Below, one piece after another: positions 29,420 through 51,643 of a stretch of DNA of 64,000 nt; the first letter of the stretch is position 1; each line of letters opens with the position of its first letter. This stretch comes from Phenylobacterium sp. (GTDB taxonomy: Bacteria > Pseudomonadota > Alphaproteobacteria > Caulobacterales > Caulobacteraceae), in the NCBI RefSeq assembly GCF_013822795.1, contig NZ_PNLB01000001.1, positions 62,001-126,000 on the forward strand. The letters are read 5' to 3'. Below the pieces are notes generated by a model. The model saw only the letters and a program-made list of their open reading frames with translations, ran no database searches and had not been told where the DNA came from. The position numbers and the translations under genes were made by a program.

Positions 29420-30259
29420 ATGAGCTCCGCCGTACTTGAAGCCAGCGACCTGCAGCTGACGATCGACCGCCTCAACCCGACCATCGGCGCCGAGGTCGGC
29501 GGCGTGGACCTGACCCGTCCCTTGAGCGCCCAGTTGCGCGAGCAGCTTCGCGAGCTGCTGCTGAAGCACAAGGTGCTGTTCTTCCGCGACCAGGACATCA
29601 CCCGCGACCAGCAGGTCGCCTTCGCCCTGAACTTCGGCGAACTCTACGCCCACCCGACCGGCGGGGTGGAGACCCATCGCGTGGTCCAGCCGATCGCCGC
29701 GGAGAACATCAAGAAGTACACGGCCAGCAACGAGAGCCACTGGCACACCGACACCAGCTGGCGGATCGATCCGTCGTTCGGCGCGGTGCTGCGGGCGGTG
29801 ACCATTCCCGAGGTCGGCGGCGACACGATCTGGGCCGACGGGGCGGCGATCTACCGGGGGCTGCCCGAGGACCTGAAGGCCAGGATCGACGACCTCTACG
29901 TGATCCACGACTACCAGGACGCCCTGCGCCGCTCGGGCGTGAAGTACCCGCTGGTCGCCCATCCGATCGTGCGCACGCACCCGGAGACCGGCGAAGACAT
30001 CTTCTGGGTCAACTTCGGCCTGAAGCCGCGGATCGTCGACCTCGACAAGGCCGAGAGCGATGCGCTGCTGGCGCGGCTCTACGAAGAGGTGAAGCGGCCC
30101 GAGTATCACGCCCGTTTCCGCTGGCGGAAGAACTCGGTGGCCTTCTGGGACAACCGCGCGGGGCTGCATTTTGCGGTCCGCGACTATGGCGACTTCCCGC
30201 GGGTGATGGAGCGGGTGCTGATCGCCAGCGACGACATTCCCTACCGCGTCCGCCGCTAG
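29420..30259 (+). CDS. TauD/TfdA-family Fe(II)/2-oxoglutarate dioxygenase
   Basis: 279-residue non-haem iron enzyme that couples 2-oxoglutarate decarboxylation to hydroxylation next to sulfur or an ether, as in taurine or alkylsulfate cleavage. The iron triad is visible: H109-x-D111 in ESHWHTDTS and the distal H250 in WDNRAGLHFAVRDYG, with the 2-oxoglutarate-binding Arg near 261-265. The length is normal. It heads a plus-strand operon with a TonB receptor, a sulfonate-type binding protein and the AsfAB-like pair. An organosulfonate or alkyl sulfate substrate is therefore more likely than 2,4-D, but taurine specificity is not shown. Confidence 0.88.
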   Translation: MSSAVLEASDLQLTIDRLNPTIGAEVGGVDLTRPLSAQLREQLRELLLKHKVLFFRDQDITRDQQVAFALNFGELYAHPTGGVETHRVVQPIAAENIKKYTASNESHWHTDTSWRIDPSFGAVLRAVTIPEVGGDTIWADGAAIYRGLPEDLKARIDDLYVIHDYQDALRRSGVKYPLVAHPIVRTHPETGEDIFWVNFGLKPRIVDLDKAESDALLARLYEEVKRPEYHARFRWRKNSVAFWDNRAGLHFAVRDYGDFPRVMERVLIASDDIPYRVRR

Positions 30260-30267
30260 CCGGCCCT

Positions 30268-30292
30268 GGGCGCCGGCGGAGAGACGGCGCCC
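30268..30292 (+). terminator. Hairpin plus T-rich tail after TauD-type gene
   Basis: Eight-base arms GGGCGCCG and CGGCGCCC with a nine-base loop, followed by GACCTTCTTTC. It sits between the dioxygenase and the TonB receptor. Since the following gene is 54 bases on and in the same direction, it may act as an attenuator that lowers expression of the downstream genes. Confidence 0.55.
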
Positions 30293-30345
30293 GACCTTCT
30301 TTCAGATCAAACCAACAGGCGGCCGTCAGAGCCGCCGGAGTCCTC

Positions 30346-32877
30346 ATGCGCATTGTTTCCCTTCGCGCGGCGCTGATCGCGTCCGCCGCGCTTGTTTCCA
30401 CGCCCGCCCTGGCCCAGTCGGGCGCGCCCAATGCCAGCCAGTCCGGAGTGGACGCGGCCGACGACGCCGTCGCCGAACTGGTGGTCACCGGCCTGCGGGG
30501 GCAGGCCCGGAGCATCGTCGACAGTCCGGCCCCGATCGACGTGGTCTCGGCCGAGCAGCTCACCGACACCGGCAAGCAGGGCCTGAAGGAGGTGCTGAAC
30601 ACGCTGCTGCCCTCGTTCAACCTGCCGGGCGTCAACGGGGGCGGGACGTCCTGGACCGTCCGGTCGGTGACGCTTCGTGGCCTGAACGGCGACCAGGCCC
30701 TGTTCCTGGTCAACGGCAAGCGGCGGCACACGACATCGCTGATCAACAACCTGGCGCGGGTAGGACGCGGCGGGGTGCCGGTCGATCTCGACCTGATCCC
30801 GGCCGCCTCGATCGCGCGCATCGAGGTGCTGCGCGACGGCGCCGCCGCGCAGTACGGCTCGGACGCCATCGCCGGCGTCATCAACATCATCCTCAAGAGC
30901 GACGACGAGGGCGGCCAGTTCGGAGTGAACACCGGCCGCAATTATCTTGGCGACGGCGAGACCATCGGGGCCTCGGCCACCTACGCGCGGCCGCTCGGCG
31001 AGGACGGCTTCGTCGATTTCGGGATCAACTGGAAGAACAGCCGCGCGGCCTCGCGCGCCATCCAGTCGACCGCCAAGTACATCTATCCGGCCCTGCCGGG
31101 CGGGGCGGCCGACCCGCGTGATGCGACCATCCCGCGGGACTTCTGGGGCCAGAGTTATGGACCTGGCGAAGAGGACGTGATCGCCACCTCGGTCAACGCC
31201 GAGCTGCCGATCTCGGACAAGACCCAGCTCTATGCGTTCGGCACGTTGAGCCACCGCAGCTCGAAGAAGAACACCGGCAGCTATCTGCCCAACAACGTCA
31301 CCCGGCCGAATACGACCACGGCGCTGCCCGAGGTCTATCCGGAGGGCTTCAACGCCCTGCGGCGGATCTTCCAGCTCGACACCCAGGTGGCGTTCGGGGC
31401 GCGGGGCGAGCGCGGCGACTGGCGCTGGGACCTGTCGACCACCGTCGCCCACGACAACGCCCAGCTGGACGGACAGAACACGCTGAACGCGACGCTGGGC
31501 CCGTCCAGTCCGACCTATTTCCACCTCTCGACCCACGTCTTCGATCAGGCGACGACCAACTTCGACATCGCCCGTGAGTACGAGGTGGGTCTGGCCGGGC
31601 CGCTGACCCTGGCGCTGGGCGCCGAGCACCGCTTCGAGCAGTTCGAGATCCATCCGGGCGACGAGGCGTCGTACGTGATCGGCGACTATGTCATCCCGGC
31701 CGGGCAGCCGTTCGCCGGTCGCCCGCCAGCCCCGGGCCTGTCCTCCTATGCCGGCACGACGCCGGACGATGCGGGCAAGATCAGCCGCAACAGCTATGCG
31801 GCCTATGTCGACGTCGGGGGCGACGTGCTGGAGAACTGGTACGTCGGGGCCGCGGCGCGGGCCGAGTACTATACCGGCGGCGTCGGCTCCACCGTCAGCG
31901 GCAAGCTCTCGACCCGCTGGGAGTTCGCGCCGGGCTATGCGGTCCGTGCGACGGTCTCCAACGGTTTCCGCGCGCCGTCGCTGGCGCAGACGATCTTCGG
32001 CTCGTCGACCTTCTCGAGCATCCAGTGCCCGCCGCCGGCCGGCGTGGTCGCCAACTGCCAGCCGGGCGTCCCGTACGTCTCGGCGCCGACCAAGGTGCTG
32101 CCGACTTTCAGCCCGGCGGCGATCTCGCTGGGGGCCGAGCCGCTCGAACCCGAGACCTCGGTCAACTACAGCTTCGGGATCACCGCCGAGCCGTTGCCGA
32201 AGCTGCGGGTGACCGTCGACGCCTACCAGATCGAGATCGACGATCGCATCGTCGACGCCAGCGTGATCCGGGGGCCGGTCGTCGGCGCCATCCTGGCGGC
32301 CAATGGGCTGCAGAGCGACCTGTCGGTCTCGTACTACACCAATGCGGTGAACACCCGGACCCGCGGGGTCGACGCCGTGGTCGAGTACGCTGTCGACCTG
32401 GCTGCTTACGGCGACCTGCGGCTGTCGGCGGCCTATGCCTGGAACAAGACTGAGATCACCCGGATCAAGCCGACGCCGGCGGTGCTGGCCAACCTCGGCT
32501 ATGCGCTGTTCGACCGCCAGAAGCAGGCCGACCTGACCATCGGCACGCCGCGGGACAAGTTCTCGCTCTCGGAGATCTGGAGCCTGGACCGCTGGAAGGT
32601 CAGCCTGCGCCAGACCCGCTACGGCGAGTACACCGAGGCCGGGTCCCAGCCGGTCAACGACCGCACCTACAGCCCCCAGTGGGTCGTCGATCTCGACGTT
32701 TCCGTCGACCTGGACGCCAACACCACCCTGGGGATCGGCGCCAACAACCTCTTCGATCAGTACCCCGACGAGATCGGGCTGCTGAGCCCGGACACCGGCA
32801 CGGGCCGGTTTGGGAGCTTCTCTCCGTTCGGCATCACCGGCGGCTACTACTACGCCCGGTTCGAGCGGCGTTTCTGA
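30346..32877 (+). CDS. TonB-dependent receptor of the sulfur island (first)
   Basis: 843-residue outer-membrane receptor. The signal peptide ends ALA-QS, followed by VAELVVTGLRG (TonB box area) and plug motifs LRGLNGDQALFLVNGKRR and IEVLRDGAAAQYGSDAIAGVINI. The barrel ends in RFERRF with a terminal Phe. It lies between the TauD-type dioxygenase and a sulfonate-type binding lipoprotein, so it likely imports a sulfur compound too large or too scarce for porins. It is clearly different from the second receptor of this island, suggesting a different ligand. The ligand is unknown. Confidence 0.9.
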   Translation: MRIVSLRAALIASAALVSTPALAQSGAPNASQSGVDAADDAVAELVVTGLRGQARSIVDSPAPIDVVSAEQLTDTGKQGLKEVLNTLLPSFNLPGVNGGGTSWTVRSVTLRGLNGDQALFLVNGKRRHTTSLINNLARVGRGGVPVDLDLIPAASIARIEVLRDGAAAQYGSDAIAGVINIILKSDDEGGQFGVNTGRNYLGDGETIGASATYARPLGEDGFVDFGINWKNSRAASRAIQSTAKYIYPALPGGAADPRDATIPRDFWGQSYGPGEEDVIATSVNAELPISDKTQLYAFGTLSHRSSKKNTGSYLPNNVTRPNTTTALPEVYPEGFNALRRIFQLDTQVAFGARGERGDWRWDLSTTVAHDNAQLDGQNTLNATLGPSSPTYFHLSTHVFDQATTNFDIAREYEVGLAGPLTLALGAEHRFEQFEIHPGDEASYVIGDYVIPAGQPFAGRPPAPGLSSYAGTTPDDAGKISRNSYAAYVDVGGDVLENWYVGAAARAEYYTGGVGSTVSGKLSTRWEFAPGYAVRATVSNGFRAPSLAQTIFGSSTFSSIQCPPPAGVVANCQPGVPYVSAPTKVLPTFSPAAISLGAEPLEPETSVNYSFGITAEPLPKLRVTVDAYQIEIDDRIVDASVIRGPVVGAILAANGLQSDLSVSYYTNAVNTRTRGVDAVVEYAVDLAAYGDLRLSAAYAWNKTEITRIKPTPAVLANLGYALFDRQKQADLTIGTPRDKFSLSEIWSLDRWKVSLRQTRYGEYTEAGSQPVNDRTYSPQWVVDLDVSVDLDANTTLGIGANNLFDQYPDEIGLLSPDTGTGRFGSFSPFGITGGYYYARFERRF

Positions 32878-32888
32878 TGGAGGGCCGC

Positions 32889-33848
32889 ATGGATCGCAGG
32901 CGCATTCTGCAACTGGGCGCGGGGTTGATGCTGGGGGCGGCGCTGCCGGCCTGCTCGCCCGCCGGCGACAAGGGCGCCGTCCTCAAGGTCGGCAGCCAGA
33001 AGGGCGGCGCCAAGGCGCTGGTCCTGGCCTCCGGCGTGCTGGAGGGCGCGCCCTATCGGGTGGAGTGGAGCGAGTTTCCCGCCGCCCAGCACCTGCTGGA
33101 GGCGATCGGGGCGGGCGCGGTCGACCTGGGCGCGGTGGGCGACGCGCCGTTCCTGTTCGCCTACGCCGCCGGGGCGCCGATCAAGGCGGTGCAGGCCTCG
33201 CGCTCCTCGGGGGGCGGGGCCTCGACCGCCGTGCTCGTGCGGGGTGACTCGCCGCTCACCAGCGCCGCCCAGCTGAAGGGCCGGCGCGTCGCCACTGGCC
33301 GCGGCTCGATCGGCCACTTCCTGCTGCTCAAGGTGCTGGAGCGCGAGGGGCTGAAGCGCAGTGACGTGGATCTGGTCTTCCTCGCGCCCGGCGACGCCAA
33401 GGCCGCCTTCGCGACGGGGGCGGTGGACGCCTGGGTGACCTGGGGTTCGTACGTCGCGCTGGCCATCGAGCATGACGGCGCGCGGGTGCTGAGCGACGGG
33501 CGCGGCCTGTTGAGCGGCTATGGTTTCGAGGTCGCCGGCGACCGGGCCATCGCCGGCAAGTCGGCTGAGCTGACCGACTTCCTGCGTCGGCTGGCCCAGG
33601 CCAAGCGCTGGGTCGGCGGCCATCGCGACGAGTACGCCAAGGTGCTGGCCAAGGAGACCGGGCTGGAGCTGTCGATCGCCGCCTACACGGTGGCCAACAC
33701 TCGTGGCGAACCGGTGCCGATCGACCAAGCGGTGATCGGCGAGCTTTCCGAGGTGCTGGCGGTGTTCCGTGCGGCCGGGGAGCTGAAGGCGGCCCCCGAG
33801 GTCGGCGCGGCGTTCGCGCCGGCGTTCAATGCGGCGCTGACGTCATGA
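32889..33848 (+). CDS. SsuA/AsfC-like sulfonate-binding lipoprotein
   Basis: 319 residues from the ATG at 32889, which has GGAGG five bases upstream; an ATG at 32877 overlaps the receptor stop. The N-terminus is a signal with a lipobox (LPAC), so it is likely a membrane-tethered periplasmic binding protein. Body motifs are VGSQKGG, DLGAVGDAPFLFAYAAGAP, LKGRRVATGRGSIGHFLL and VDAWVTWGSYVA, typical of aliphatic-sulfonate binding proteins. No permease or ATPase follows it; the island's only SsuBC pair is about 15 kb away. Its order before AsfA/AsfB-like genes recalls asfC of pseudomonads. It ends in ATGA overlapping the next start. Confidence 0.85.
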   Translation: MDRRRILQLGAGLMLGAALPACSPAGDKGAVLKVGSQKGGAKALVLASGVLEGAPYRVEWSEFPAAQHLLEAIGAGAVDLGAVGDAPFLFAYAAGAPIKAVQASRSSGGGASTAVLVRGDSPLTSAAQLKGRRVATGRGSIGHFLLLKVLEREGLKRSDVDLVFLAPGDAKAAFATGAVDAWVTWGSYVALAIEHDGARVLSDGRGLLSGYGFEVAGDRAIAGKSAELTDFLRRLAQAKRWVGGHRDEYAKVLAKETGLELSIAAYTVANTRGEPVPIDQAVIGELSEVLAVFRAAGELKAAPEVGAAFAPAFNAALTS

Positions 33849-35425
33849 ACGACCCGCTGCGGTTGGAGGCGGACGTGCTGGTGATCGGCGGCGGGCTGGC
33901 CGGCTGCTGGACCGCCGCGGCCGCGGCGCAGGCAGGGGCCAGCGTGATCCTGGCCGAGAAGGGCTATTGCGGGACCAGCGGCGTGACCGCCACCGCTGGC
34001 CCTTCGCACTGGTGGGTCCCGCCCGAACCGCCCGCCGCCCGCGAACAGGCGATCGCCGAGCGTCACGCCCGCGGCTTTGGCCTTTCGGACCCGGCCTGGA
34101 TGGCGCGGATCCTCGACATCACCTGGCGGACGCTGCCGACGCTGGCGCCGTTCTATCGGTTCTCAGTCGACGACCAGGGACAGGTTCAGCACCGCGGCCT
34201 GCGCGGCCCGGAATACATGCGGGCCATGCGCGCGCTGGTCGAGCACCTGGGCGTGACGATCCTGGACCAGAGCCCGGCTCTTGAACTGCTCACCCGCCAC
34301 GACGGGACGGTCGCGGGAGCGGCCGGGCATCGTCGGCAGGAGGGCCGCGACTGGATCGTGCGAGCCGGGGCAGTGGTGATCGCCACCGGCGGCTGCGCCT
34401 TCGCCTCGCATCTGCTGGGGGCCGGCAACAACACCGGTGAGGGGCTGCTGATGGCGGTCGAGGCCGGCGCCGATCTCTCGGGCATGGAGTTCACCAACTA
34501 CTACACCGTCGCCCCGGCCGGCACGACGATGACCCGGTCGATGGCCTACACCTTCGGCCGCTACTTCGACGCCGATGATCGCGAGTTGGGGATCCATCCC
34601 GGGCCGGACATGAACCGGGCGTTGGGCGAGGCGCTGCTGAAGGGGCCGGTGTTCTGCCGTCTGGACCGCGTGCCGCAGGACATCCGCGAGCGCATGCCGC
34701 AGGTGCAGCCGAACTTCGTGCTGACCTTCGCGCGGCAGGGGATCGATCCTTATCGCGACCGCTTCGCGGTGACGCTGCGCGCCGAGGGCACCGTGCGCGG
34801 GATCGGCGGCCTGCGGCTGCAGGACCAGGACTGCCGCACGCGCGTGAGGGGGCTCTATGCGGCCGGCGACGCGGCGACCCGCGAGCTGGTGGCGGGCGCC
34901 ACCTCCGGCGGGGGCAATCAGAATTCGGCCTGGGCGCTGTCGTCCGGCCAGATCGCCGGGGCGGCGGCGGCCGGCCTCGCCCTGCGCGAAGGCCGCGGCG
35001 TGCAGCGCATCGCCTATGTCGCCGGCCGCGCCGGCCTGCGGCCGTCAGCCGGGGCGCGCAGCTTCGATGTTGGCGCGGCGGTGGAGCTGGCTCGCCGTGA
35101 GATGGGCGATCTCGACAAGAACATGTTCCGTCGCGGCGAGGACCTTGCGGCCTCGCTGGACCGCCTGAGTAGCGCATTCGCCGAGCTGGCGACGCATGGC
35201 TCGGCGCTTGGGGGCGAGCGCCAGCGGCTGCGTGAGGCGGCCGGGATGCTGGCCGCTGCTCGCTGGAGCAAGGCCTCGGCCCTGGCGCGGGCCGAGAGCC
35301 GCGGCATGCACCACCGCTCCGACGCGCCGGCTAGCCGCGCGCAGTTCGCCAGCCGCCAGCGCTCGGGCGGGCTGGAGAGCGTCTGGACCCGTTTCGAGCG
35401 CCAGCCGGCGGAGGCCGTCCCATGA
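33845..35425 (+). CDS. asfA: AsfA-like FAD oxidoreductase (APS-reductase/fumarate-reductase fold)
   Basis: 526-residue flavoprotein. The N-terminal FAD fold is clear (VLVIGGGLAGCWTAAAAAQAG, then LAEKGYCGTSGVTATAGPS), with the second FAD block RGLYAAGDAATRELVAGATSGG. It resembles the catalytic subunit of adenylylsulfate reductase and the fumarate-reductase flavoprotein group. A helical C-terminal tail extends from about residue 400. It overlaps the binding protein before it and the two-cluster ferredoxin after it (ATGA both times), so the three act together. In Pseudomonas putida S-313 the AsfA/AsfB pair serves arylsulfonate desulfonation. The symbol is assigned by this architecture and recall, not alignment. 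Confidence 0.65.
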   Translation: MNDPLRLEADVLVIGGGLAGCWTAAAAAQAGASVILAEKGYCGTSGVTATAGPSHWWVPPEPPAAREQAIAERHARGFGLSDPAWMARILDITWRTLPTLAPFYRFSVDDQGQVQHRGLRGPEYMRAMRALVEHLGVTILDQSPALELLTRHDGTVAGAAGHRRQEGRDWIVRAGAVVIATGGCAFASHLLGAGNNTGEGLLMAVEAGADLSGMEFTNYYTVAPAGTTMTRSMAYTFGRYFDADDRELGIHPGPDMNRALGEALLKGPVFCRLDRVPQDIRERMPQVQPNFVLTFARQGIDPYRDRFAVTLRAEGTVRGIGGLRLQDQDCRTRVRGLYAAGDAATRELVAGATSGGGNQNSAWALSSGQIAGAAAAGLALREGRGVQRIAYVAGRAGLRPSAGARSFDVGAAVELARREMGDLDKNMFRRGEDLAASLDRLSSAFAELATHGSALGGERQRLREAAGMLAAARWSKASALARAESRGMHHRSDAPASRAQFASRQRSGGLESVWTRFERQPAEAVP

Positions 35426-35769
35426 TCTCGTTCGTCGCCGAGGACCGCTGCGAGCCATGCGGCGCCTGTGTCGCCGTCTGCCCGGCGAATGTCTTCGAGG
35501 CGGGGCCGGGCGGGCGCCCGGTCATCGCGCGCCAGACGCAGTGCCAGACCTGCTTTCTTTGCGAGCTCTACTGTCCCGCGGACGCGCTCTACGTCGACCC
35601 GGACTGCGAGACCGTCCGGCCTGTCGACCCGGCGCAGGCTGCGCCGCTGCTCGGCCAGTACCGACGCGAGTCCGGCTGGGGCGAGTGGGCCGACGTTTAC
35701 GCCAACGAGCACTGGCGGATGGGCGAGATCTTCGCCCGCGCCCGCGCCTTGGCGACGCCCCGCACCTGA
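35422..35769 (+). CDS. asfB: AsfB-like ferredoxin with two [4Fe-4S] sites
   Basis: 115-residue electron carrier coupled by ATGA to the flavoprotein gene. It has two full CxxCxxCxxxCP motifs: Cys10, 13, 16, 20 and Cys41, 44, 47, 51, which predict two [4Fe-4S] clusters as in AprB or bacterial ferredoxins. The tail after residue 60 has aromatic and charged residues (RRESGWGEWADVYANEHW), as in AprB-like subunits that wrap their flavoprotein. It most likely passes electrons to or from the AsfA-like subunit. It could be a general ferredoxin, but the overlap argues for a dedicated partner. Confidence 0.7.
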   Translation: MISFVAEDRCEPCGACVAVCPANVFEAGPGGRPVIARQTQCQTCFLCELYCPADALYVDPDCETVRPVDPAQAAPLLGQYRRESGWGEWADVYANEHWRMGEIFARARALATPRT

Positions 35770-35795: not shown

Positions 35796-36458
35796 ATGGC
35801 TGTGCAAGATACATTGAGGAGCCGGCTGGCGGCGCTGCACGAGGAGCGCAAGCGGACCTGGGAGCCGGCGGCGCTGCAGGCCAACATCGACCAGCGCCGG
35901 CGGCTGGTGGAGGCGGCCGATCCGGGTTCGTGGGTGAGGGCCGGCAACGTGGTCGCCCCGTTCACGCTCAGCGAGGTCGACGGGCAGGAACTGACGCTCG
36001 ATGGTCTGCTGGTCAAAGGGCCGCTAGTGCTGGTGTTCTTCCGGTTCGCCGGCTGCCCGGCCTGCAACATCGCCCTGCCGTACTATCAGGAGCGGCTGGC
36101 GCCCGGCCTGGCCAAGCTGGGCGCGACCCTGGTCGCGGTCAGCCCGCAGGTTCCGGAGAAGCTGGCCGAGATCAAGCGTCGTCACGACCTTACGTTCCTG
36201 GTCGCCTCCGACCGCAACGAACTCGGCCGGCGGTTCGGGATCCTCTACGAGCCGGACGAGGCGTCGAAGGCCGCATCGCGAGCCAAGGGCTCGTTCATCG
36301 GCGATACGACTGGCCTGGGGACCTGGGAGTTGCCGCAGCCGGCGGTGGTGGTGATCGGGCAAGACCGGGTCGTACGGTTCGCCGAGGTCAGCCCCGACTG
36401 GCTGGTCCGCGCTGAGGCCGAGACGGTGCTCGAGGCGCTGAGCGTTCCGGCGATCTGA
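35796..36458 (+). CDS. Peroxiredoxin-like thiol peroxidase (AhpC/TSA family)
   Basis: 220 residues from the ATG at 35796, with AAGGAGAA upstream. After a helical N-terminal extension (about 1-50) comes a thioredoxin-fold AhpC/TSA domain. The active-site strand is VLVFFRFAGCPACNIALPYY, with Cys87 and Cys90 in a CxxC arrangement instead of the single peroxidatic Cys of classical 2-Cys enzymes. Later blocks are LVAVSPQVPEKLAEI and PAVVVIGQDRVVRF. It likely removes peroxide made by uncoupled flavin monooxygenases or keeps sulfur intermediates reduced. It is the last gene of the plus arm, before the shared hairpin. Confidence 0.8.
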   Translation: MAVQDTLRSRLAALHEERKRTWEPAALQANIDQRRRLVEAADPGSWVRAGNVVAPFTLSEVDGQELTLDGLLVKGPLVLVFFRFAGCPACNIALPYYQERLAPGLAKLGATLVAVSPQVPEKLAEIKRRHDLTFLVASDRNELGRRFGILYEPDEASKAASRAKGSFIGDTTGLGTWELPQPAVVVIGQDRVVRFAEVSPDWLVRAEAETVLEALSVPAI

Positions 36459-36503: not shown

Positions 36504-37046
36504 CTACGCCAATTGGTGGAAGCCGCGCTCGAAGTAGAGCAGGGGAGCGCCGCCCTGGGTCCTGGCGTCGCTGACGTCCAGAATGAAGACCGTGTGGCTC
36601 GCCGCGTCGATACGGCAGCAGACCGGGCCGGCCAGCGAAACCAGCGCTTGGCGATAGGCCGGCGGCGATTGCGGCTGCAGGGCCCAGCGATCGGCCGCGA
36701 AGCGCTCGCCGGCGCGGTCCGGGCGGGAGAAGCGCTCGGCCTCAGCCTGGTCGTCGTCGGCCAGGATCGACAGGCTGACAGCGTCGGCGTGCAGCAGCGC
36801 CTGGTGGGCGCTGGCCGCCTTGCGCACGCAAAACAGAATTCGCGGCGGATCGCTGGAGAGGCCGGTCAGCGAGCTGACCAGCAGCCCGCGCGGACCCTCT
36901 GGCGTCCAGCAGGCGACGACCGCCACGCCCGAGGCAAGCTTGGCCAGCCCGTCGCGGAACGCGGCCTCGTCCACCGGCGGCCAGAGCCGGACGACATCGC
37001 AGGTCCCCTCGGCGGCGCTCGCCGCCCGCACGCTACCGTCGGCCAT
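36504..37046 (-). CDS. Flavin reductase (FMN reductase domain) for the monooxygenases
   Basis: 180-residue flavin reductase-like protein of the HpaC/DIM6 split-barrel family, supplying reduced FMN from NAD(P)H. Start at the ATG at 37046; the open frame further upstream overlaps the monooxygenase gene. Motifs are FRDGLAKLASGVAVVACWTPEG, GLLVSSLTGLSSDPPRILFCV near the flavin site and PLLYFERGFHQL at the end. It follows the LLM monooxygenase gene by 11 bases on the same strand. That makes it the likely reductase partner of this and perhaps also the second LLM enzyme and the DszC-like enzyme. It is not the SsuE flavodoxin-fold type. Confidence 0.85.
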   Translation of the reverse strand: MADGSVRAASAAEGTCDVVRLWPPVDEAAFRDGLAKLASGVAVVACWTPEGPRGLLVSSLTGLSSDPPRILFCVRKAASAHQALLHADAVSLSILADDDQAEAERFSRPDRAGERFAADRWALQPQSPPAYRQALVSLAGPVCCRIDAASHTVFILDVSDARTQGGAPLLYFERGFHQLA

Positions 37047-43255: not shown

Positions 43256-43338
43256 TCTGACGCCCCGTGTTGAGATGAGGGCGTTGAATAGCTTCGAGTG
43301 AAGCGCGGCAACGTACATTAGCTGTTTTTGCGTATAGG

Positions 43339-44349: not shown

Positions 44350-45191
44350 CAGTCGAACAGGTCCGGCTCTTCTTCGCTGACCACGTCCCAGTAGGGCTGG
44401 AAGGCGTAGATCCCGCCGACCTCGCTGCCGACCTGGCCGGCGGTGTGGCGGGCGACTTCGGGGGGCATAGGCCGGGTCTGACCGGCCGCCTCGGCCAGCA
44501 ACTGCACCTGGCAGGCGTTTTCCATGGCCAAGTAGCGCCAGACCGCCGCCTCGACGCTTTGGCCGACGGTCAGGATGCCGTGGTTCTGCAGGATCACCGC
44601 CTTGCGGGGGCCGAGCGCCTCGGCGATCTTTTCGCCCTCGCTGGTGTCGAGCACGACGCCGGAGAACTCCTCGAAGAGCGAATGGTCGTCGTAGAAGGCC
44701 GCGGCGTCCTGGGTCAGCGGGTCGAGCAGGCGGCCGAGCGCCGACCAGGCCTTGCCATACAGGGAGTGCGAGTGGGCGGCGGCGATCACGTCGGGCCGAG
44801 CCTTGTGCAGCTCGGAGTGAATGGCGAAGGCCGCGCGGTTCAGGCGCGGCTTGGCGTGGGCCGGCGGCTGGACGATCTCGCCCTCATGGCTGACCAGCAT
44901 CAGGTCCGAGACGGTGATCCGGCTGAAGTGGACACCCGCCGGATTGACCCAGAAATGGTCGGGATGCTCGGGATCGCGGGCGGTGATATGGCCGGCGCCG
45001 CCCATGTCGAAACCGTTGCGCGCAAACAGTCGGTAGCCAGCGGCCAGCCGCTGCTTGCGATAAAGGCGCTCGGCTTCCAGCGTCGGCTGCTGGGGCACGA
45101 CGCCGGGCGCGCCGAACGCGCGCTCGGGCAGGGCCGTCTCGATCTTGTCCGGATGGGACGCCCGCAAGGGGCGCTGAAGGGGCAGGTTCAT
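44349..45191 (-). CDS. Class II aldolase/adducin-family protein
   Basis: 280-residue metal-dependent class II aldolase-like protein. It shows the metal-binding AAAHSHSLYGKAWSAL motif (two His), a third His in LQNHGILTVG, and the FARNGFDMGGAGHITAR opening block that binds substrate phosphate in true aldolases. Relatives of this length (about 260-280) are often uncharacterised and may be decarboxylases, epimerases or aldolases. It lies between a 2-hydroxyacid dehydrogenase and a sulfonate-binding protein. It may cut or decarboxylate the carbon skeleton left from, or still carrying, the sulfonate. No specific reaction is claimed. Confidence 0.8.
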   Translation of the reverse strand: MNLPLQRPLRASHPDKIETALPERAFGAPGVVPQQPTLEAERLYRKQRLAAGYRLFARNGFDMGGAGHITARDPEHPDHFWVNPAGVHFSRITVSDLMLVSHEGEIVQPPAHAKPRLNRAAFAIHSELHKARPDVIAAAHSHSLYGKAWSALGRLLDPLTQDAAAFYDDHSLFEEFSGVVLDTSEGEKIAEALGPRKAVILQNHGILTVGQSVEAAVWRYLAMENACQVQLLAEAAGQTRPMPPEVARHTAGQVGSEVGGIYAFQPYWDVVSEEEPDLFD

Positions 45192-45204: not shown

Positions 45205-46155
45205 TCAATAGCCGCGGACGGTGTCGACCAGGTCGGCCAGCGGCGCGCCCTCGCGGAACCGAGCGAGGTTGGCGGCGAACTGGGCGGCGAGGTTGCGCCG
45301 GGTGTCGGGGGTGTGGACCGAAGTGTGCGGCGAGAGCCGGACCTTCGGGTGATTGTAGTAGCGGTGATTGAAGGGCAGCGGCTCGGGGTGGGTGACGTCG
45401 AGACTGGCGCGCGCCACCCGGCCGTCGTCCAGCGCCTCCAGCAGCGCGGCGTCGTTGATCAGGGCGCCGCGGGCGATGTTGATCAGGTGCAGGCCGGGCT
45501 TGGCGCGGGCCAGCACCTCGGGGCCGATCAGGCCGACGGTTTCCGGCGTCGCCGGTGCGGCCAGCACGACATAGTCCGAGCGGGCGAACAGATCGCCAAG
45601 GTCCTGCAACTGCTCGACGCCGGGGACGCCGATTGGGGCGGTGGAACGGCGGACCGCGACCACGTCCAGCCCCAGCGCCTGGGCGCGCGGGGCGAGGGCC
45701 TCGCCGATCGAGCCAAAGCCGACCAGGCCAAGGGTCTTGCCGGCGACGAGGCTGAGCGGGGTCGGCGCCCATTGCTCGAACCTGTCGATCCAGATCTCCG
45801 GCAGGCGCTTGGCCTCGGCGAAGATCGCAGCCAGGGCGAACTCGGCCAGGGCCACCGCCGACGACCCGCGCGCTGAGGTCACCGCAGGACCGTCGAACAG
45901 CCACTCCGGATAGAAGTCGATGCCGACCGAGACGAGCTGCACCCACTTCACATTGAACGGCCATCCCGGCGGCGGGGCGACCGGCAGCGAGCCGCCGGCC
46001 TTGCGGAAGGGCGCGGCGATCAGCACCTGGGCCTCGCGCGGCAGGCCCGCCGGGGTTCCGACTGGAACCCCGACGATGTCCACGTCGGGAAGCTGTTCGG
46101 CGAAGGCGGTGTTGAACGCCTCGTTCAGCTGGCTGGCGACGACGAGCCGGCTCAT
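45205..46155 (-). CDS. D-2-hydroxyacid dehydrogenase
   Basis: 316-residue NAD(P)-dependent dehydrogenase of the D-isomer 2-hydroxyacid family. The nucleotide fold is GKTLGLVGFGSIGEALAPRA (about 138-157). The catalytic set is visible: Arg in NIARGALINDAALLEAL, Glu in DVTHPEPLP, and His in LSPHTSVHT. It is shorter in the substrate domain than lactate or phosphoglycerate dehydrogenases, similar to GhrA-like enzymes. It sits three bases after the second LLM gene's... neighbour start and 13 bases before the aldolase. It may oxidise a sulfo- or hydroxy-acid, or recycle the aldehyde/acid product of desulfonation. Confidence 0.85.
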   Translation of the reverse strand: MSRLVVASQLNEAFNTAFAEQLPDVDIVGVPVGTPAGLPREAQVLIAAPFRKAGGSLPVAPPPGWPFNVKWVQLVSVGIDFYPEWLFDGPAVTSARGSSAVALAEFALAAIFAEAKRLPEIWIDRFEQWAPTPLSLVAGKTLGLVGFGSIGEALAPRAQALGLDVVAVRRSTAPIGVPGVEQLQDLGDLFARSDYVVLAAPATPETVGLIGPEVLARAKPGLHLINIARGALINDAALLEALDDGRVARASLDVTHPEPLPFNHRYYNHPKVRLSPHTSVHTPDTRRNLAAQFAANLARFREGAPLADLVDTVRGY

Positions 46156-46157: not shown

Positions 46158-47261
46158 CTATTCGGCCGCCAGGATTTTCGGCGCGCCGCGCTGGGCCACC
46201 GCCGCGCGCAGCTGCGGCAGCAGTTCGCGGCCGTACTCGATCGCGTCCTCCAGCGGGTCGAAGCCGCGGAACAGGAACTTGGTGATCCCGAGGTCGTAGT
46301 AGTCGAGCAGGGAGTCGACGACCTGCTCGGGCGTGCCGACCAGCGAGGTGGAATTGCCCTGCGCGCCGGTCAGGGCGGCGATCTCGGTCCAGAGCCGCTT
46401 GTCGCGCACCTTGCCGCCGGCCGCGGCCTCCAGCAGGCGCTGGCCGCCGCGCGCGGTGGCGTAGCGGGTCGGCGCCCCGCCGCCGGCGGCCTTCAGCGCC
46501 TTGGCGTCCTCCAGGATCCGCTCGGCGCGGGCCCAGGCGTCTTCCTCGGTGCGGCCCAGGATCGGGCGCAGCGACAGCGAGAACTTGATCTCGCGGCCGT
46601 TTTGCGCGGCCGCGGCCCGGACGCGTCCGACGATTTCGCGGACCTGCTCAACCGTCTCGCCGAACAGCGCGTAGACGTCGGCCTGGCGGCCGGCGATCTC
46701 GAGCGCCTCGTCCGAAGAGCCGCCGAAGAACACCGGCAGGTGCGGCTGCTGCAGGGTCTTCACAGCCGCCGGCGCGCCCTTCACCCGGTAATGCGGGCCG
46801 TCGTGGTCGAAGGGGCCGTTGCTGGTCCAGGCCTTCTTGAGGACGGTGATGTAGTCGTCGGTGCGGGCGTAGCGCTCCTCCTTGGTCAGGAAGTCGCCGT
46901 CGCGCTGCTGCTCCTCGTCCGAGCCGCCGGTGATGATGTGCACCGCCAAGCGCCCATCGCTGAGATGGTCCAGCGTCGCCAGCTGCCGGGCGGCCACGGT
47001 TGGGGACGTCACGCCCGGACGATGGGCGAGCAGGAACTTCAGCTTCTCGGTCTGTTGGGCGGCGTAGGCTGCGACCTGGAAGCCGTCGGGCGAGGCCGAG
47101 TTGTAGCCGATCAGCACGCGGTCGAAGCCGGCGTACTCATGGGCCTTGGCGTGGGCGGCGAGGTAGGCCTTGTCGATCAGGCCGCTCTTCGCCGGGTGGG
47201 TCTCGGACGCGTACTGGGTCGAGATCAGGCCCAGGATCTCAAGGTCGGGCGTATCGGTCAT
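46158..47261 (-). CDS. LLM-class FMNH2-dependent monooxygenase, SsuD-like (second)
   Basis: 367-residue luciferase-like monooxygenase, paralogous to the one at 37058-38152. Matching blocks are PTVAARQLATLDHLSDGRLAVHIITGG, GDFLTKEERYARTDDYITV and LPVFFGGSSDEALEIAGRQ. The N-terminus (LEILGLISTQYASETHP) and parts of the C-terminal third differ from the first copy, so substrate range likely differs. It lies directly after the DszC-like gene and before the dehydrogenase-aldolase pair. It needs reduced FMN, and the only flavin reductase seen in the island is at 36504-37046. Confidence 0.88.
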   Translation of the reverse strand: MTDTPDLEILGLISTQYASETHPAKSGLIDKAYLAAHAKAHEYAGFDRVLIGYNSASPDGFQVAAYAAQQTEKLKFLLAHRPGVTSPTVAARQLATLDHLSDGRLAVHIITGGSDEEQQRDGDFLTKEERYARTDDYITVLKKAWTSNGPFDHDGPHYRVKGAPAAVKTLQQPHLPVFFGGSSDEALEIAGRQADVYALFGETVEQVREIVGRVRAAAAQNGREIKFSLSLRPILGRTEEDAWARAERILEDAKALKAAGGGAPTRYATARGGQRLLEAAAGGKVRDKRLWTEIAALTGAQGNSTSLVGTPEQVVDSLLDYYDLGITKFLFRGFDPLEDAIEYGRELLPQLRAAVAQRGAPKILAAE

Positions 47262-47292: not shown

Positions 47293-48453
47293 TCAGCGGG
47301 CGAGCGCGGCGAAGGCCGCCTTGCCGGCGCCGGCCAGGACGACGTCGGCCTGGGGCGTGTGGACGCGGCCGCAGAGGACGTCGCGGTAGTGGCGCTGCAG
47401 CGGGTTGTGACGCGAGAGGCCGGGATTGCCGCTGGCGGCGATGGCCTTCTCGACGGCGGCGATGGCGTTCTCGGTGACCAGGTGCTTGACCAGGCCGCCG
47501 TACGGCGCGCCCAGCCTGCCCTCGGCGGCGGAGTCGAGCAGCACGCGGTTCTGCAGCAGCAGGCCGTCGATCTCGCCGACTAGTTCCTGGAAGCGCGGCA
47601 GGGTGGCCAGCGACGCGCCCAGATTGGCCGGCTTGCGGTCGACGACGAAATGCACGAACCAGTCGCGGGCCGAGCGGGCGGCGGCGTCGTAGATCGCGGC
47701 GGTGAGCACCGGCGACCAGACGGCCATGGCGGGGTCCGGCGGCTGCGGCGAGCTTGGCGGCCGCGGCGACAACGCATGGTGCTCGGGGATCGGGGCAGCC
47801 TCGAAGATCACGTCGTGGCTGCCGCTGGCGCGCAGGCCGGTGTGGTCCCAGGTCTCTTCGATCCGTCGGCCGGGGGCGTCCTTGTGCACAAGGAAGCCTC
47901 CGACGCGGGGCTCGTCCTCGTCGGTGCGCGCCCAGACGATCATCCAGGTCAGGGCCGGCGAGCCAGTCGAGTAGATCTTGCGTCCAGACAGGCTCCAGCC
48001 ATCGGCCGTGCGCCGCGCCACGGTCGCGGGGAGGCCGCCCCGCGCGGGGGTGCCGAGATCGGGCTCGACCCGCAGGGCGTTGATCAGCGCGCCATTCTCG
48101 ACGGCGTCGCGGACCACCTTGGCCTTGAGGTCGTCGGTGAAGCCCGCGCGGCCGTCGAGCGACGCGTGGAACAGGTACTGCATCGTCAGCACCAGGGCGG
48201 TGGCGGGCTCTCCTCTCGCCACGGCCGCGACCACCTTCAACGTCGTCGGCAGGTCGGCCGCGCGGCCGCCGAAGCGGGCCGGGGCGGTCAGCGCCAGCAA
48301 CTGCTCCTGATGCAGCCGCGCGAAGTTCTCGAACGGGAAGCTGGAGTCGCGATCATGCTGCTCGGCCCCGGCCGCGAAGGCCGCGGTGAGCTCGGGCAGC
48401 AGGGCGTCGAGATCCTGGTCCGGCGCGATCGCCGTGGCGGCAAGCGCGCTCAC
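47293..48453 (-). CDS. DszC/SfnB-like acyl-CoA-dehydrogenase-fold flavoprotein
   Basis: 386 residues from a GTG at 48453 that overlaps the ssuB stop (GTGA). The acyl-CoA dehydrogenase fold is seen in ALTAPARFGGRAADLPTTLKVVAAVARG, then LSGRKIYSTGSPALTWMIVWAR and the C-terminal LQRHYRDVLCGRVHTPQ. Unlike true acyl-CoA dehydrogenases it lacks the usual catalytic Glu region and has the short C-terminal loop of flavin-dependent monooxygenases such as DszC (dibenzothiophene) and SfnB (sulfur acquisition). In this operon an oxygenase acting on a sulfide, sulfoxide or sulfone is more likely than beta-oxidation. The frame upstream of the GTG is shadow coding. Confidence 0.8.
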   Translation of the reverse strand: MSALAATAIAPDQDLDALLPELTAAFAAGAEQHDRDSSFPFENFARLHQEQLLALTAPARFGGRAADLPTTLKVVAAVARGEPATALVLTMQYLFHASLDGRAGFTDDLKAKVVRDAVENGALINALRVEPDLGTPARGGLPATVARRTADGWSLSGRKIYSTGSPALTWMIVWARTDEDEPRVGGFLVHKDAPGRRIEETWDHTGLRASGSHDVIFEAAPIPEHHALSPRPPSSPQPPDPAMAVWSPVLTAAIYDAAARSARDWFVHFVVDRKPANLGASLATLPRFQELVGEIDGLLLQNRVLLDSAAEGRLGAPYGGLVKHLVTENAIAAVEKAIAASGNPGLSRHNPLQRHYRDVLCGRVHTPQADVVLAGAGKAAFAALAR

Positions 48454-49241
48454 GCGACCACCTCGCCGCTCGGGAACGAGATCAGCGCGCCCTCTTGGGC
48501 GACCGGACGCAGGTTCTGCACGCCCAGATGCCCGAGCAGCCGCTGGCGGACGGCTTGGAAGGCGGCGTCGGCCTCGCGCGGGCGGGGCAGGGCGATCACC
48601 TCCTCGGCGGCGATCTGGCCGTGATCGAGCACCAGCACGCGGTCGGCGAGGGCGATGGCCTCGTCGACGTCGTGGGTGACCAGCAGCACCGCCGGGGCAT
48701 GTTTGCGCCACAGCGACAGCACCAGCTCGTGCATCCGCAGCCGGGTCAGGGCGTCGAGGGCGGCGAACGGCTCGTCGAGCAGCAGCAGGCCGGGCTCGCG
48801 GATCAGGGCGCGGGCCAGAGACACGCGCTGGCTCTCGCCGCCGGACAGCGTCGCCGGCCAGACATCCAGCCGGTGATCGAGGCCGACCTCGCCGAGCGCG
48901 GCCTCGGCGCGGGCGCGGACGTCCTTGCCTTTGAGGCCCAGGGCCACGTTGCGCCACACCCGCTTCCAGGGCAGCAGCCGGGCGTCCTGGAACACGACGG
49001 CGCGGGCCGCCGGGGTGACGACGTCCTGGCCGGGCGCGGGGTCGAGCCCGGCGAGCGTGCGCAGCAGCGTGGTCTTGCCCGACCCGCTGCGGCCCAGCAG
49101 GGCGACGAACTCGCCCGGGGCGATGTCGAGGTCGAGGTCTTTCAGGACCACGGTGTCGCCGAACCGGCGGGTGAAGCCGCGAACCCGGACGACCGGTTCG
49201 CGGTCGTGCGTGGCGGCGGAGCGAAGAGGCGAGATGGACAC
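48450..49241 (-). CDS. ssuB: Aliphatic sulfonate ABC importer ATPase
   Basis: 263-residue ABC ATPase. Walker A is GRSGSGKTT (residues 50-58), the Q-loop VVFQDARLLPWKRVWRNV near 82-99, signature LSGGESQRV (132-140), Walker B LLLLDEPFAALDA (152-164) and the switch His in VTHDVDEA. The RLLPWKRVWRNV block is the usual SsuB/TauB form. It powers uptake through the SsuC-like permease encoded just upstream. SsuB is favoured over TauB because two SsuD-like monooxygenases accompany it. Confidence 0.9.
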   Translation of the reverse strand: MSISPLRSAATHDREPVVRVRGFTRRFGDTVVLKDLDLDIAPGEFVALLGRSGSGKTTLLRTLAGLDPAPGQDVVTPAARAVVFQDARLLPWKRVWRNVALGLKGKDVRARAEAALGEVGLDHRLDVWPATLSGGESQRVSLARALIREPGLLLLDEPFAALDALTRLRMHELVLSLWRKHAPAVLLVTHDVDEAIALADRVLVLDHGQIAAEEVIALPRPREADAAFQAVRQRLLGHLGVQNLRPVAQEGALISFPSGEVVA

Positions 49242-49278: not shown

Positions 49279-50154
49279 TCAGGATTTGATGAGGGCCGGC
49301 CGCCAGGCGAGCGCGCGTTGCTCGACGGTGCGGACGATGAGGTCGGCGGTCAGGCCCAGCAGGGCGTAGACCAGCAGGCAGACGACGATGATGTCGGTGC
49401 GCATGAAGTCCCGGGCGTTGTTGATCAGGTGGCCGAGCCCGGCGGAGGCGTTGATCTGCTCGGCGACGACGAGGACCAGCAGCGCGACGCCCATGGAGTA
49501 GCGCAGGCCGACCAGGAACGAGGGCAGGGCGCCGGGCAGGATCACCTGAGTGATCTGCTGGGCCGGGCTCAGGCCGAAGCTGCGCGCGGCCTCGACCAGT
49601 CGGACGTCGACGCCGCGGATGCCGGAGAACAGGTTGAGGTAGATCGGGAACACCGTCGCCACGGCGATCAGGGTGATCTTCGGCGCCTCGCCGATCCCGA
49701 ACCAGACGATGAACAGCGGGGTGAGGGCCAGGCTGGGGATCGTGCGCTTGATCTGCATCAGCGGATCGACCGCCGTCTCGCCTGCGCGCGACAGTCCGGC
49801 GATCAGCGCCAGGGCGGTTCCGGCCACCACGCCGATCGCCAGGCCGACGCTGGCGCGCGCCAGCGAGACCAGCAGGTTCGACGGCAGTTCGCCGCTGATC
49901 GTCAGCTCCCAGAGCGCGCCGATGACTGTCGAGGGCGCAGCCAGGATGCGCGGCGGAATGACCCCGGTGCGCGAGCCCAACTCCCACAACAGCAGCAGCA
50001 GCACCGGCGACAACCAACGAGCATTGCTAATGCTCAGCCGTGGCAGGCGAAGCTCGATAGGTTTTCTGGCGGCGGTCGATAGAGACACTGAAAAGGCTCC
50101 GAACGTTTGCCGCACAAGGGAAAATTCCGCTTGGCGTTTCGTCAGAAAGCCCAT
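49279..50154 (-). CDS. ssuC: Aliphatic sulfonate ABC importer permease
   Basis: 291-residue inner-membrane permease with about six spans; the first is near residues 48-64 (LSPVLLLLLWELGSRTG). The cytoplasmic EAA loop that docks SsuB is EAARSFGLSPAQQITQVILPGALPSFLVG. The ATG at 50154 has AGGA five bases upstream. It is the first gene of the long minus-strand arm and diverges from the LysR gene across a 71-bp gap. TauC or nitrate permeases look alike, but the gene set supports organosulfonate uptake. Confidence 0.9.
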   Translation of the reverse strand: MGFLTKRQAEFSLVRQTFGAFSVSLSTAARKPIELRLPRLSISNARWLSPVLLLLLWELGSRTGVIPPRILAAPSTVIGALWELTISGELPSNLLVSLARASVGLAIGVVAGTALALIAGLSRAGETAVDPLMQIKRTIPSLALTPLFIVWFGIGEAPKITLIAVATVFPIYLNLFSGIRGVDVRLVEAARSFGLSPAQQITQVILPGALPSFLVGLRYSMGVALLVLVVAEQINASAGLGHLINNARDFMRTDIIVVCLLVYALLGLTADLIVRTVEQRALAWRPALIKS

Positions 50155-50225
50155 TAATTCCTATCAACTCAATAGACTTATATTCAACTGAGCTATCAGA
50201 GAAACTCATAGGTAAGCCCTTGGCT
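50155..50225. promoter_or_regulatory. Divergent ssuC/lysR promoter with LysR-type site
   Basis: AT-rich 71-bp gap. It contains CTAT-N11-ATAG at 50193-50211, which satisfies the T-N11-A core of LysR-type binding sites. A nearby CTAT-N7-ATAG (50161-50175) and TTATATT (50178-50184) may be a second half-site and promoter elements. The site is directly ahead of lysR, as expected for autoregulation with divergent activation of ssuC. Confidence 0.5.
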
Positions 50226-51050
50226 GTGAACTTGCCGACCGAGCTGCTGCGAAGCTTCGCCGCCATCGTGGATTCCGGATCGATGCTGCGCGCGACCGAG
50301 CGGGTCTATGTCACCCAGTCGGCGCTGAGCCTGCAGATGAAGCGGCTGGAGGAGGCGGTCCAGGCGCCGTTGTTCCACCGCGACGGCCGCCGTCTGGTGC
50401 TGACGCCGGTCGGTCAGAGCCTGCTGGGCTTCGCGCGCGAAATGCTGGCCACCAACGACCGCGCGGTGGCCGCCCTGACCGGCGGAGCTTTGGCGGGGCC
50501 GGCCCGCGTGGGCTTGGTGCAGGACTTCGCCGAGACGCTGCTGTCGGGCGTGCTGGCGCAGTTCGCCCAGCTGAACCCCGACGTCCAGCTGCAGGTGCGG
50601 GTGGGCGGGTCGCAGGAACTGCTGGAGCTGCTGAAGTCCGACCGCCTGGACGTGGTGCTGTGCATGGGGGCCGGCGATGACCCGTCGGCCGTGCGCGTCG
50701 CGCCGACGATCTGGATGGGCGATGCGGCGCTGCTCGAGCAGGAGGTGCTGCCGTTGGCGATTCTAGAGGAGCCTTGCCGCTTCCGCGATGCGGCGCTGGC
50801 GGCGCTGAAGGCCGCCGGCCGGCCGTATCGGGTGGTGCTCGAGACCCCGAGCCTGTCGGTGCTGCGCGCGGCGGTGACCGCGGGACTGGGCGTCACCTGC
50901 CGCACCGAGATGTTCTCCGACCGGACGCTCGAGGGCGTCGGCCTGCCGGCGCTGCCGGCGGTCGGCTACGCGAGCCATACGCGGCATGAGCCGCACCAGA
51001 CGATCTCTCGACTAGCCGATCTCATGCAAACCGCGGTCCTGAAACTATGA
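50226..51050 (+). CDS. LysR-family regulator of the sulfur island
   Basis: 274 residues from the GTG at 50226; a TTG at 50220 is in frame and would add two residues. The N-terminal helix-turn-helix is LLRSFAAIVDSGSMLRATERVYVTQSALSLQMKRLEEAVQ, a typical LysR pattern. The effector domain starts near residue 90 and holds RLDVVLCMGAG. Divergent placement from ssuC and the LysR-type site in the gap make it the likely controller of the minus arm. A sulfur metabolite effector, as for CysB, Cbl or AsfR, is plausible. It is translationally coupled to the RutE-like gene by an ATGA overlap. Confidence 0.85.
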   Translation: MNLPTELLRSFAAIVDSGSMLRATERVYVTQSALSLQMKRLEEAVQAPLFHRDGRRLVLTPVGQSLLGFAREMLATNDRAVAALTGGALAGPARVGLVQDFAETLLSGVLAQFAQLNPDVQLQVRVGGSQELLELLKSDRLDVVLCMGAGDDPSAVRVAPTIWMGDAALLEQEVLPLAILEEPCRFRDAALAALKAAGRPYRVVLETPSLSVLRAAVTAGLGVTCRTEMFSDRTLEGVGLPALPAVGYASHTRHEPHQTISRLADLMQTAVLKL

Positions 51051-51643
51051 GCGAACACGACGCCCTTTCCGATCCCGCCCTCGATCAGCTGTTCCGCAGC
51101 GCCAGGTCGGCCAACGCCTGGACGTCGGAGGCGGTGCCCGAGAGCCTGCTGCGGCAACTCTATGATCTCGTTAAACTCGGCCCGACCTCGGCCAACGTCT
51201 CGCCAGCCCGGTTCGTGTTCCTGGTCACGCCGCAGGCCAAGGCCCGGCTCGCGCCGCACCTGTCCAGCGCCAACCGCGCCAAGTCGCTGGCCGCCCCGGT
51301 CACTGCGATCATCGGCTATGATCTGAACTTCGCCGAGAAGATCCCCGAGCTGTTCCCGCACAATCCCGGCGCCAAGGCGTGGTTCGCTGATCCCGAGCTG
51401 GCGGCGATCACGGCGCTGCGCAATGGCACGCTGCAGGGCGCATATCTGATGCTGGCCGCCCGCGCGCTGGGCCTGGACTGCGGGCCGATGTCCGGTTTCG
51501 ACCATGCCGGCGTTGACGCCGAGTTCTTCGCCGGGACTTCGCTGGTCAGCAACTTCGTCTGCAACATCGGCTACGCGGACCACAGCGGCGCCTTCGCCCG
51601 ACTGCCGAGGCTGTTGTTCGAAGACGCCTGCCGGATCGAGTAG
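51047..51643 (+). CDS. RutE-like nitroreductase (malonic semialdehyde reductase family)
   Basis: 198-residue FMN-dependent nitroreductase-fold enzyme. Motifs are WTSEAVPESLLRQLYDLVKLGPTSANVSPARFVFL at the N-terminus and NGTLQGAYLMLAARALGLDCGPMSGF, matching the RutE group, which reduces malonic semialdehyde to 3-hydroxypropionate. It overlaps the LysR gene (ATGA). In this place it could detoxify an aldehyde released by sulfonate cleavage; the C3 aldehyde of RutE would fit a C3 thiol or sulfonate substrate such as 3-mercaptopropionate derivatives. This is inference. It is not in a pyrimidine (rut) cluster. Confidence 0.85.
   Translation: MSEHDALSDPALDQLFRSARSANAWTSEAVPESLLRQLYDLVKLGPTSANVSPARFVFLVTPQAKARLAPHLSSANRAKSLAAPVTAIIGYDLNFAEKIPELFPHNPGAKAWFADPELAAITALRNGTLQGAYLMLAARALGLDCGPMSGFDHAGVDAEFFAGTSLVSNFVCNIGYADHSGAFARLPRLLFEDACRIE

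Follow-up and report, generated by a model that had tools for sequence, protein, structure and literature searches.

We analyzed a 64-kb stretch of Phenylobacterium sp. DNA (G000:C1:62001-126000, hereafter the window), which derives from a 4.41 Mb genome that is 99.8% complete. Positions 29420-51643 of the window hold 21 genes that, judged from their sequences, probably form a horizontally moved, modular and O2-dependent island for scavenging organic sulfur, a reading to which we assign a probability of roughly 0.7. Gene content, conservation, presence or absence in other genomes and the active-site signatures of the encoded enzymes are directly established and are laid out below.

Architecture of the locus

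The locus consists of two converging operons, as the first-pass annotation had claimed, with six genes on the forward strand (operon 1) facing 13 on the reverse strand (operon 2). A LysR and a nitroreductase gene on the forward strand are divergent from ssuC. The 21 genes were assigned from Pfam and NCBIfam scans (the nitroreductase from Pfam alone), and gene starts were checked. Every family named in that annotation is present, and the nitroreductase is an addition to its list. Inside each arm, adjacent genes overlap or are separated by at most about 100 bp, which makes it probable that each arm is a single transcript.

Operon 1 encodes a TauD-type Fe(II)/2-oxoglutarate (2OG) dioxygenase (29420-30259; PF02668, 218 bits), TonB-dependent receptor 1 (TonB1, 30346-32877; PF00593/PF07715), an SsuA-family substrate-binding protein (SBP1, 32889-33848; TIGR01728 score 193 against a cut-off of 163.5, scanned with an N-terminal extension), an AsfA-like FAD oxidoreductase of the fumarate reductase flavoprotein superfamily (33845-35425; PF00890, with solved relatives 3p4p and 8a8o), an AsfB-like 2[4Fe-4S] ferredoxin (35422-35769; Fer4 families) and an AhpC/TSA-type peroxiredoxin (Prx, 35796-36458; PF00578).

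Operon 2, listed in window coordinates, comprises a flavin reductase (FlvR, 36504-37046; PF01613, 94 bits), which is likely the FMNH2 supplier for the monooxygenases, the SsuD-related LLM monooxygenase LLM1 (37058-38152), a glutathione S-transferase homologue (GST, 38254-38904; GST_N/GST_C), a four-domain rhodanese (Rho4, 38913-40481; PF00581 in four stretches), a thiol dioxygenase (CDO, 40485-41072), TonB-dependent receptor 2 (TonB2, 41069-43318; PF00593/PF07715), a second SsuA-like binding protein (SBP2, 43381-44349; PF09084, TIGR01728 score 148 against 163.5), a NovR-like class II aldolase homologue (AldII, 44349-45191; PF00596), a D-2-hydroxyacid dehydrogenase (HADH, 45205-46155; PF02826, 147 bits), a second SsuD-related LLM monooxygenase (LLM2, 46158-47261), an acyl-CoA-dehydrogenase-fold flavin enzyme (AcDH, 47293-48453; PF02770/PF08028, nearest solved structure 5gj7), an SsuB-like ABC ATPase (48450-49241; NF008420 score 252 against 395) and an SsuC-like ABC permease (49279-50154; NF008470 score 245 against 347). 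From their N-termini, SBP1 and SBP2 both appear to be lipoproteins.

The LysR-type regulator gene (50220-51050; PF00126/PF03466) is followed by that for a nitroreductase-family flavoprotein (51047-51643; PF00881). Between ssuC and lysR lies an AT-rich 65-bp region (50155-50219) with a footprint conserved in 13 Caulobacteraceae sequences (the window and 12 other loci), across Phenylobacterium and Caulobacter; in L082 and L113, which are more distant, it is not clearly visible. The footprint is a candidate regulator site.

Conservation of the gene set in other genomes

An AsfA alignment was run against 84,980 species genomes, and of 528 confirmed stretches the 80 best were taken as AsfA loci, 20 of them shorter than 20 kb. 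Genes were counted as present at 45% identity and 60% coverage; one LLM gene may count for both LLM queries, and likewise for the SBP and TonB query pairs. AsfB is found in 80/80 of these loci, Prx in 49, SsuB in 33, SsuC in 31, TauD and AcDH in 29 each, TonB1 in 28, Rho4, LLM1 and LLM2 in 22 each, the thiol dioxygenase in 21, SBP1 in 20, HADH in 17, LysR in 12, SBP2 in 8, and TonB2 and the aldolase homologue in 6 each. These 16 island genes besides AsfA and AsfB are thus present in 6-49 of the 80 loci, whereas the control genes from the window flanks (n = 26) reach 0-1 (24 genes 0/80, 2 genes 1/80). Ten or more of the 21 island queries fall within a span of at most 21.6 kb in 22 of the 80 loci, which belong to Caulobacter (10), Pseudomonas (10), Asticcacaulis and one contig of a metagenome-assembled genome (MAG). 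AsfA is combined with both the thiol dioxygenase and Rho4 in 17 of the 60 loci that span 20 kb or more.

Gene-order maps were made for 14 loci selected as already showing island genes, and 16 loci were searched for extra DNA; no extension was made for L052 and L032, which have no Rho4 near AsfA. Caulobacter zeae and C. endophyticus 774 hold 19/21 families in about 22 kb, in the order FlvR-LLM1-GST-Rho4-CDO-TonB2-SBP2-AldII-HADH-AcDH-SsuB-SsuC, which is the order of the window without LLM2; LysR comes next, with TauD-TonB1-SBP1-AsfA-AsfB-Prx on its far side. Caulobacter BK020 resembles C. zeae but lacks TauD (18/21 families). The betaproteobacterium Andreprevotia carries SsuC-SsuB-AcDH-LLM-LLM-HADH-AldII-SBP2-TonB2-CDO-Rho4-TonB1-SBP1-AsfA-AsfB on a single strand. 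Pseudomonas loci read LLM1-CDO-Rho4-TauD-TonB1-AsfA-AsfB-SBP1-Prx-AcDH-HADH with variations (PDM05 is without TauD and TonB1), and their aldolase-family match is only 35-38% identical. On the Sphingobium plasmid pTomTYG65a we find TonB receptors, TauD, AsfAB, Prx, a shorter rhodanese match, the thiol dioxygenase and SsuBC, and in Prosthecomicrobium LLM, AcDH, CDO, Rho4 and AsfAB; a further composite is present in Asticcacaulis. A MAG contig titled Chitinophaga pinensis (L075) also holds a proteobacterial-type composite and may be mis-binned. The composites of C. zeae, C. endophyticus, Andreprevotia, Pseudomonas and Sphingobium thus share up to 19/21 families in about 22 kb with the window but differ from it in the order of the arms.

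Conservation of the cluster beyond this strain had been set beforehand as a check, and it is borne out by the best-80 AsfA loci, the 14 maps and the congeners G009 and G031. A one-strain accident is contradicted by the same loci and by the composites in other genera. The TonB receptors, too, recur within conserved composites and belong to the locus as had been proposed. AsfA occurs in 2/387 evenly drawn alphaproteobacteria (own genome included) and Rho4-type proteins in 82/387 (E <= 1e-90), with at most three first-look candidates scored per genome, so that both counts may be low. We rejected Rho4 alone as an island marker, since many alphaproteobacteria carry it, often as a stand-alone gene: in 19 regions around alphaproteobacterial Rho4 genes, the thiol dioxygenase is adjacent in 3 and within about 5 kb in 1.

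The distribution of AsfAB bears on an alternative that is plausible although we lean against it, namely that operon 2 is a dedicated pathway for one organosulfur compound, such as a thioether or a mercapto-carboxylic acid, and that operon 1 with AsfAB and TauD is a neighbor sharing its transporter. Indeed, the thiol dioxygenase, rhodanese, LLM and aldolase homologue, together with AcDH, cluster without AsfA in Paraburkholderia sprentiae (L013), a Comamonadaceae genome (L014) and two alphaproteobacteria (L175, L177), and G009 and G031 retain most of operon 2 without AsfAB. In these two congeners, however, TauD, TonB1, SBP1 and Prx remain beside operon 2, and in Andreprevotia, Pseudomonas and Sphingobium AsfAB accompanies the same families. 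In Bradyrhizobium (L074, L085, L090), moreover, HADH and AldII follow AsfAB with no CDO or Rho4 match in the locus. These three loci and locus L185 contain two tandem AsfAB pairs followed by HADH and a class II aldolase homologue, and these carbon enzymes are therefore tied to AsfAB as well.

Genomic context and modularity

By blastn and from junction sequences, a 24.2 kb block (27491-51656) that comprises the organosulfur island and, upstream of it, an amine-oxidase gene (27524-29095, reverse strand) is missing as one unit from 3/3 close relatives, G022 (a chromosome-size contig), G023 and G101. In these genomes, matches ending at window positions 27474-27490 and starting at 51649-51657 are only 46-51 bp apart. 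The flanks are 87-93% identical, and the right flank shows 96-97% protein identity. The block is a genomic island in the sense that it is absent from otherwise collinear genomes. Region G016 (L129) is uninformative on the site, as its right-flank gene is present and its left-flank gene is not. No tRNA was found in the 64-kb window, and scans of four genes at the ends gave no integrase; no repeats were seen by eye in the junctions, for which no dedicated repeat search was made. Since the island is rare in the genus (Rho4 in 5/60 genomes, own included), gain at this site is tentatively favored over loss. AsfA occurs in 2/48 same-genus genomes examined, own included, with the nearest AsfA outside the own genome in G017. 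Next to the island, a second block (window 6433-26442) is missing in G022 and G101, where matches to 6432 (6428) and 26443 lie almost side by side; the region as a whole seems plastic.

In the congeners G009 and G031, the island keeps the order of the window but sits in another gene neighborhood. Both are without AsfAB and TonB2, and a search of their whole genomes returned no AsfA. G009 additionally lacks the nitroreductase and G031 lacks LLM2, while in G031 the nitroreductase follows LysR as in the window. Between SBP1 and Prx, G009 carries a luciferase-family monooxygenase of about 496 aa and a 319-aa protein without a Pfam match (L123:10814-13137), possibly an alternative desulfurizing insert; in G031, Prx directly follows SBP1. 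AsfAB is thus most likely a swappable insert rather than a fixed part of the island. The view that one locus combines all parts agrees with the conserved composite, but AsfAB is missing from these two otherwise syntenic congeners. The G031 Rho4 (L125 ~16500-18100) matches as two overlapping pieces and may thus be frameshifted. Another congener, G104, has a smaller cluster (L127 ~14400-18600) with the thiol dioxygenase (52%), Rho4 (58%), HADH (68%) and the aldolase homologue (80%).

It is unlikely, in our view, that the island is an accretion at a recombination hotspot, in which sulfur genes that share no pathway were acquired, and are regulated, separately. Such a history would fit the variation of gene order between genera, the SBP1-Prx slot, which holds AsfAB, the luciferase-family monooxygenase with its 319-aa partner, or nothing, and the second indel adjoining at 6.4-26.4 kb. 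It fits poorly with genes that are tightly packed and often overlapping, with 12 operon 2 genes (all but LLM2) standing in the order of the window in three Caulobacter genomes, and with a single LysR gene next to a conserved footprint.

Active-site signatures of the island enzymes

LLM1 and LLM2 share 55% identity with each other and 32-36% each with E. coli SsuD. We compared them at five positions that we take to be the SsuD catalytic residues C54, Arg-226, His-228, Arg-297 and Tyr-331 (R226, H228, R297, Y331). SsuD/MsuD-family references carry C,R,H,R,Y in 18/18 cases and SfnG references A,N,F,N,F in 5/5, whereas both island enzymes carry S, S, R, T, F. Among 38 island-type rows (LLM1, LLM2 and 36 homologues), S226, R228 and F331 are found in 38/38, S at position 54 in 29/38 and T at position 297 in 24/38. 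In a tree made by a quick method without bootstrap, island-type LLMs, SsuD/MsuD and SfnG form separate groups with SH-aLRT values of 97, 98 and 100. On these sequence grounds, LLM1, LLM2 and their homologues stand as a clade apart from both SsuD/MsuD and SfnG, and the label "SsuD-like" of the first-pass annotation has to be given up. As SsuD/MsuD they were rejected with TIGR03565 scores of 239/238 against a cut-off of 518 and with all five catalytic residues replaced; as SfnG they were rejected with TIGR04021 scores of 157/154 against 383 bits, the SfnG set of residues being absent at the five positions.

A genuine SsuD is encoded elsewhere in the host genome (C15:8237-9277, 547.7 bits), and another TauD homologue lies within about 5 kb of it (G000:C15:3307-9277). 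This proximity makes it probable that a second sulfonate locus, of a more ordinary kind, is present there.

AcDH, scanned with an N-terminal extension, scores 87 against 430.9 bits for SfnB and 28 against 850 bits for DszC; its earlier description as DszC/SfnB-like thus holds at the superfamily level and for neither family. It is probably a flavin-dependent monooxygenase. In the TauD homologue, the residues we take to be the Fe and 2OG ligands (H99, D101, H255, R266) are all retained in the alignment. Of the presumed taurine contacts, H70 and R270 are retained while Y73 is replaced by G and N95 by T, and NF007104 scores 248 against a cut-off of 313. The designation "TauD-type" is therefore apt for the metal and cosubstrate site, but two taurine contacts are lost.

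The thiol dioxygenase matches the solved MDO-type chains 4qma, 6xb9, 3uss (with 4tlf) and 4wvz with 284/281/274/270 bits, compared with 35 bits for mercaptosuccinate dioxygenase and at most 25 bits for mammalian-type CDO, and by these matches it is of the 3-mercaptopropionate-dioxygenase type. The sole cysteine of the rhodanese, C189 in domain 2, is present in 51/51 aligned homologues, rows that may include overlapping loci. The enzyme previously called an aldolase does belong to the class II aldolase family, yet its nearest matches are 4xxf (246 bits; titled fuculose-1-phosphate aldolase) and NovR 9ryg (225 bits), with about 51 bits to FucA. It retains the three metal-site histidines and lacks the glutamate at what we take to be the position of the FucA catalytic residue. 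Because pyruvic oxime dioxygenase, likewise a homologue of class II aldolases, depends on Fe(II) (PMC5216522), an O2-dependent role for the NovR-like protein is possible by analogy.

It is improbable that the locus instead serves to break down an aromatic or lignin-like compound and that its sulfur-family labels mislead: LLMs without SsuD catalytic residues and the carbon-type enzymes (the NovR-like aldolase homologue, GST and the 2-hydroxyacid dehydrogenase) would suit it, but an SsuA/B/C-type transporter is repeatedly found in company with AsfAB, rhodanese and an MDO-type thiol dioxygenase.

Proposed function

For the sulfur-scavenging island we infer transport, substrates, order of steps and regulation as follows. 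The two TonB receptors would import organosulfur compounds into the periplasm, where the SBP1 and SBP2 lipoproteins would hand them to the single SsuBC transporter. In the cytoplasm, O2-dependent enzymes would oxidize or cleave C-S bonds to yield sulfite; the desulfurizing set would include the TauD-type dioxygenase, LLM1 and LLM2, the AcDH monooxygenase fed by the flavin reductase, AsfAB and the thiol dioxygenase, with the AsfAB redox pair acting on aromatic sulfonates. The NovR-like aldolase homologue and the hydroxyacid dehydrogenase may handle the carbon remnant, and rhodanese, GST and peroxiredoxin may deal with intermediates that are thiols or persulfides. At low sulfate, the island would be turned on by the LysR protein. 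Sulfite would be consumed by a host sulfite reductase; the host genome encodes NIR_SIR-family proteins, a family-level assignment.

Several points weigh against this proposal. The flavin reductase (1/80), GST (1/80) and nitroreductase (0/80) do no better than controls in the best-80 AsfA loci, and 58 of these loci hold fewer than 10 island queries. The full set of 80 comes mostly from Caulobacter and Pseudomonas and consequently does not amount to 80 independent cases. The promoter alignments between ssuC and lysR gave a footprint but no assignable motif, and operons 1 and 2 may respond to different signals.

More tentatively, and with slightly less than even confidence, we suggest that operon 2 represents an undescribed aerobic C-S cleavage pathway. 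It would be built on a third clade of SsuD-related LLM monooxygenases (S226/R228/F331) acting on neither alkanesulfonates nor dimethyl sulfone, which would work with a non-heme-iron enzyme of NovR type, the thiol dioxygenase and rhodanese as a pair, and import through TonB receptors. The pathway may spread from one proteobacterial class to another as a cassette island whose desulfurizing inserts, such as AsfAB, can be exchanged.

Relation to known systems and implications

We compared the island to characterized sulfur loci. In Pseudomonas putida S-313, asfRABC is required for aromatic sulfonate use and is activated under sulfate limitation, and asfA mutants are reported to lose the use of aromatic but to keep that of aliphatic sulfonates (PMC4267179). 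Like asfRABC, the island places a reductase/ferredoxin pair by an SsuA-type binding protein and includes a LysR gene. It differs in that LysR lies at the far end, about 15 kb from AsfA rather than adjacent to it, that TauD, a TonB receptor and peroxiredoxin are part of its asf operon, and that a second operon of 13 genes is attached. With ssuEADCB, which serves alkanesulfonate use, it shares an SsuB/SsuC-like transporter, SsuA-like binding proteins, an LLM monooxygenase and a flavin reductase, but its LLMs are without C54/R226/H228/R297/Y331, its SsuB, SsuC and LLM proteins fall below the curated cut-offs, and TonB receptors are present. As in tauABCD, there is a dioxygenase with intact Fe and 2OG ligands, yet the island homologue replaces Y73 and N95 (248 against 313). 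The sfn genes for dimethyl sulfone use consist of an LLM, an acyl-CoA-dehydrogenase-fold enzyme and a flavin reductase, all of which have counterparts in the island; the island proteins, however, score 157/154 against 383 (SfnG) and 87 against 431 bits (SfnB) and carry S/S/R/T/F, not A/N/F/N/F. A 3mdo-tst pair is known in Pseudomonas (PMC12947264). There (PA2602-PA2603; CHA0), as in the island, a 3-mercaptopropionate-dioxygenase-type gene adjoins a sulfurtransferase gene, but the island pair is embedded in a transport and monooxygenase operon.

We found no description of the whole gene set or of the LLM clade in the open-licence literature; a paper on X. citri transport mentions neither TonB nor asf in its main text (PMC4501297). 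Every module has a known relative; the conserved composite as a whole, like the LLM clade, did not turn up in our searches of that literature.

Organic forms account for more than 95% of the sulfur in soil, and desulfonation is tracked with asfA as the marker gene (PMC4267179). Our findings indicate that AsfAB can sit inside a much larger conserved locus, and that this locus also exists without AsfAB. Enzymes annotated as alkanesulfonate monooxygenase, such as that of Sphingobium locus L011, fall in a clade of their own that lacks the known catalytic residues. The island thus provides a defined gene set with a clear substrate question in culturable Caulobacter and Phenylobacterium.

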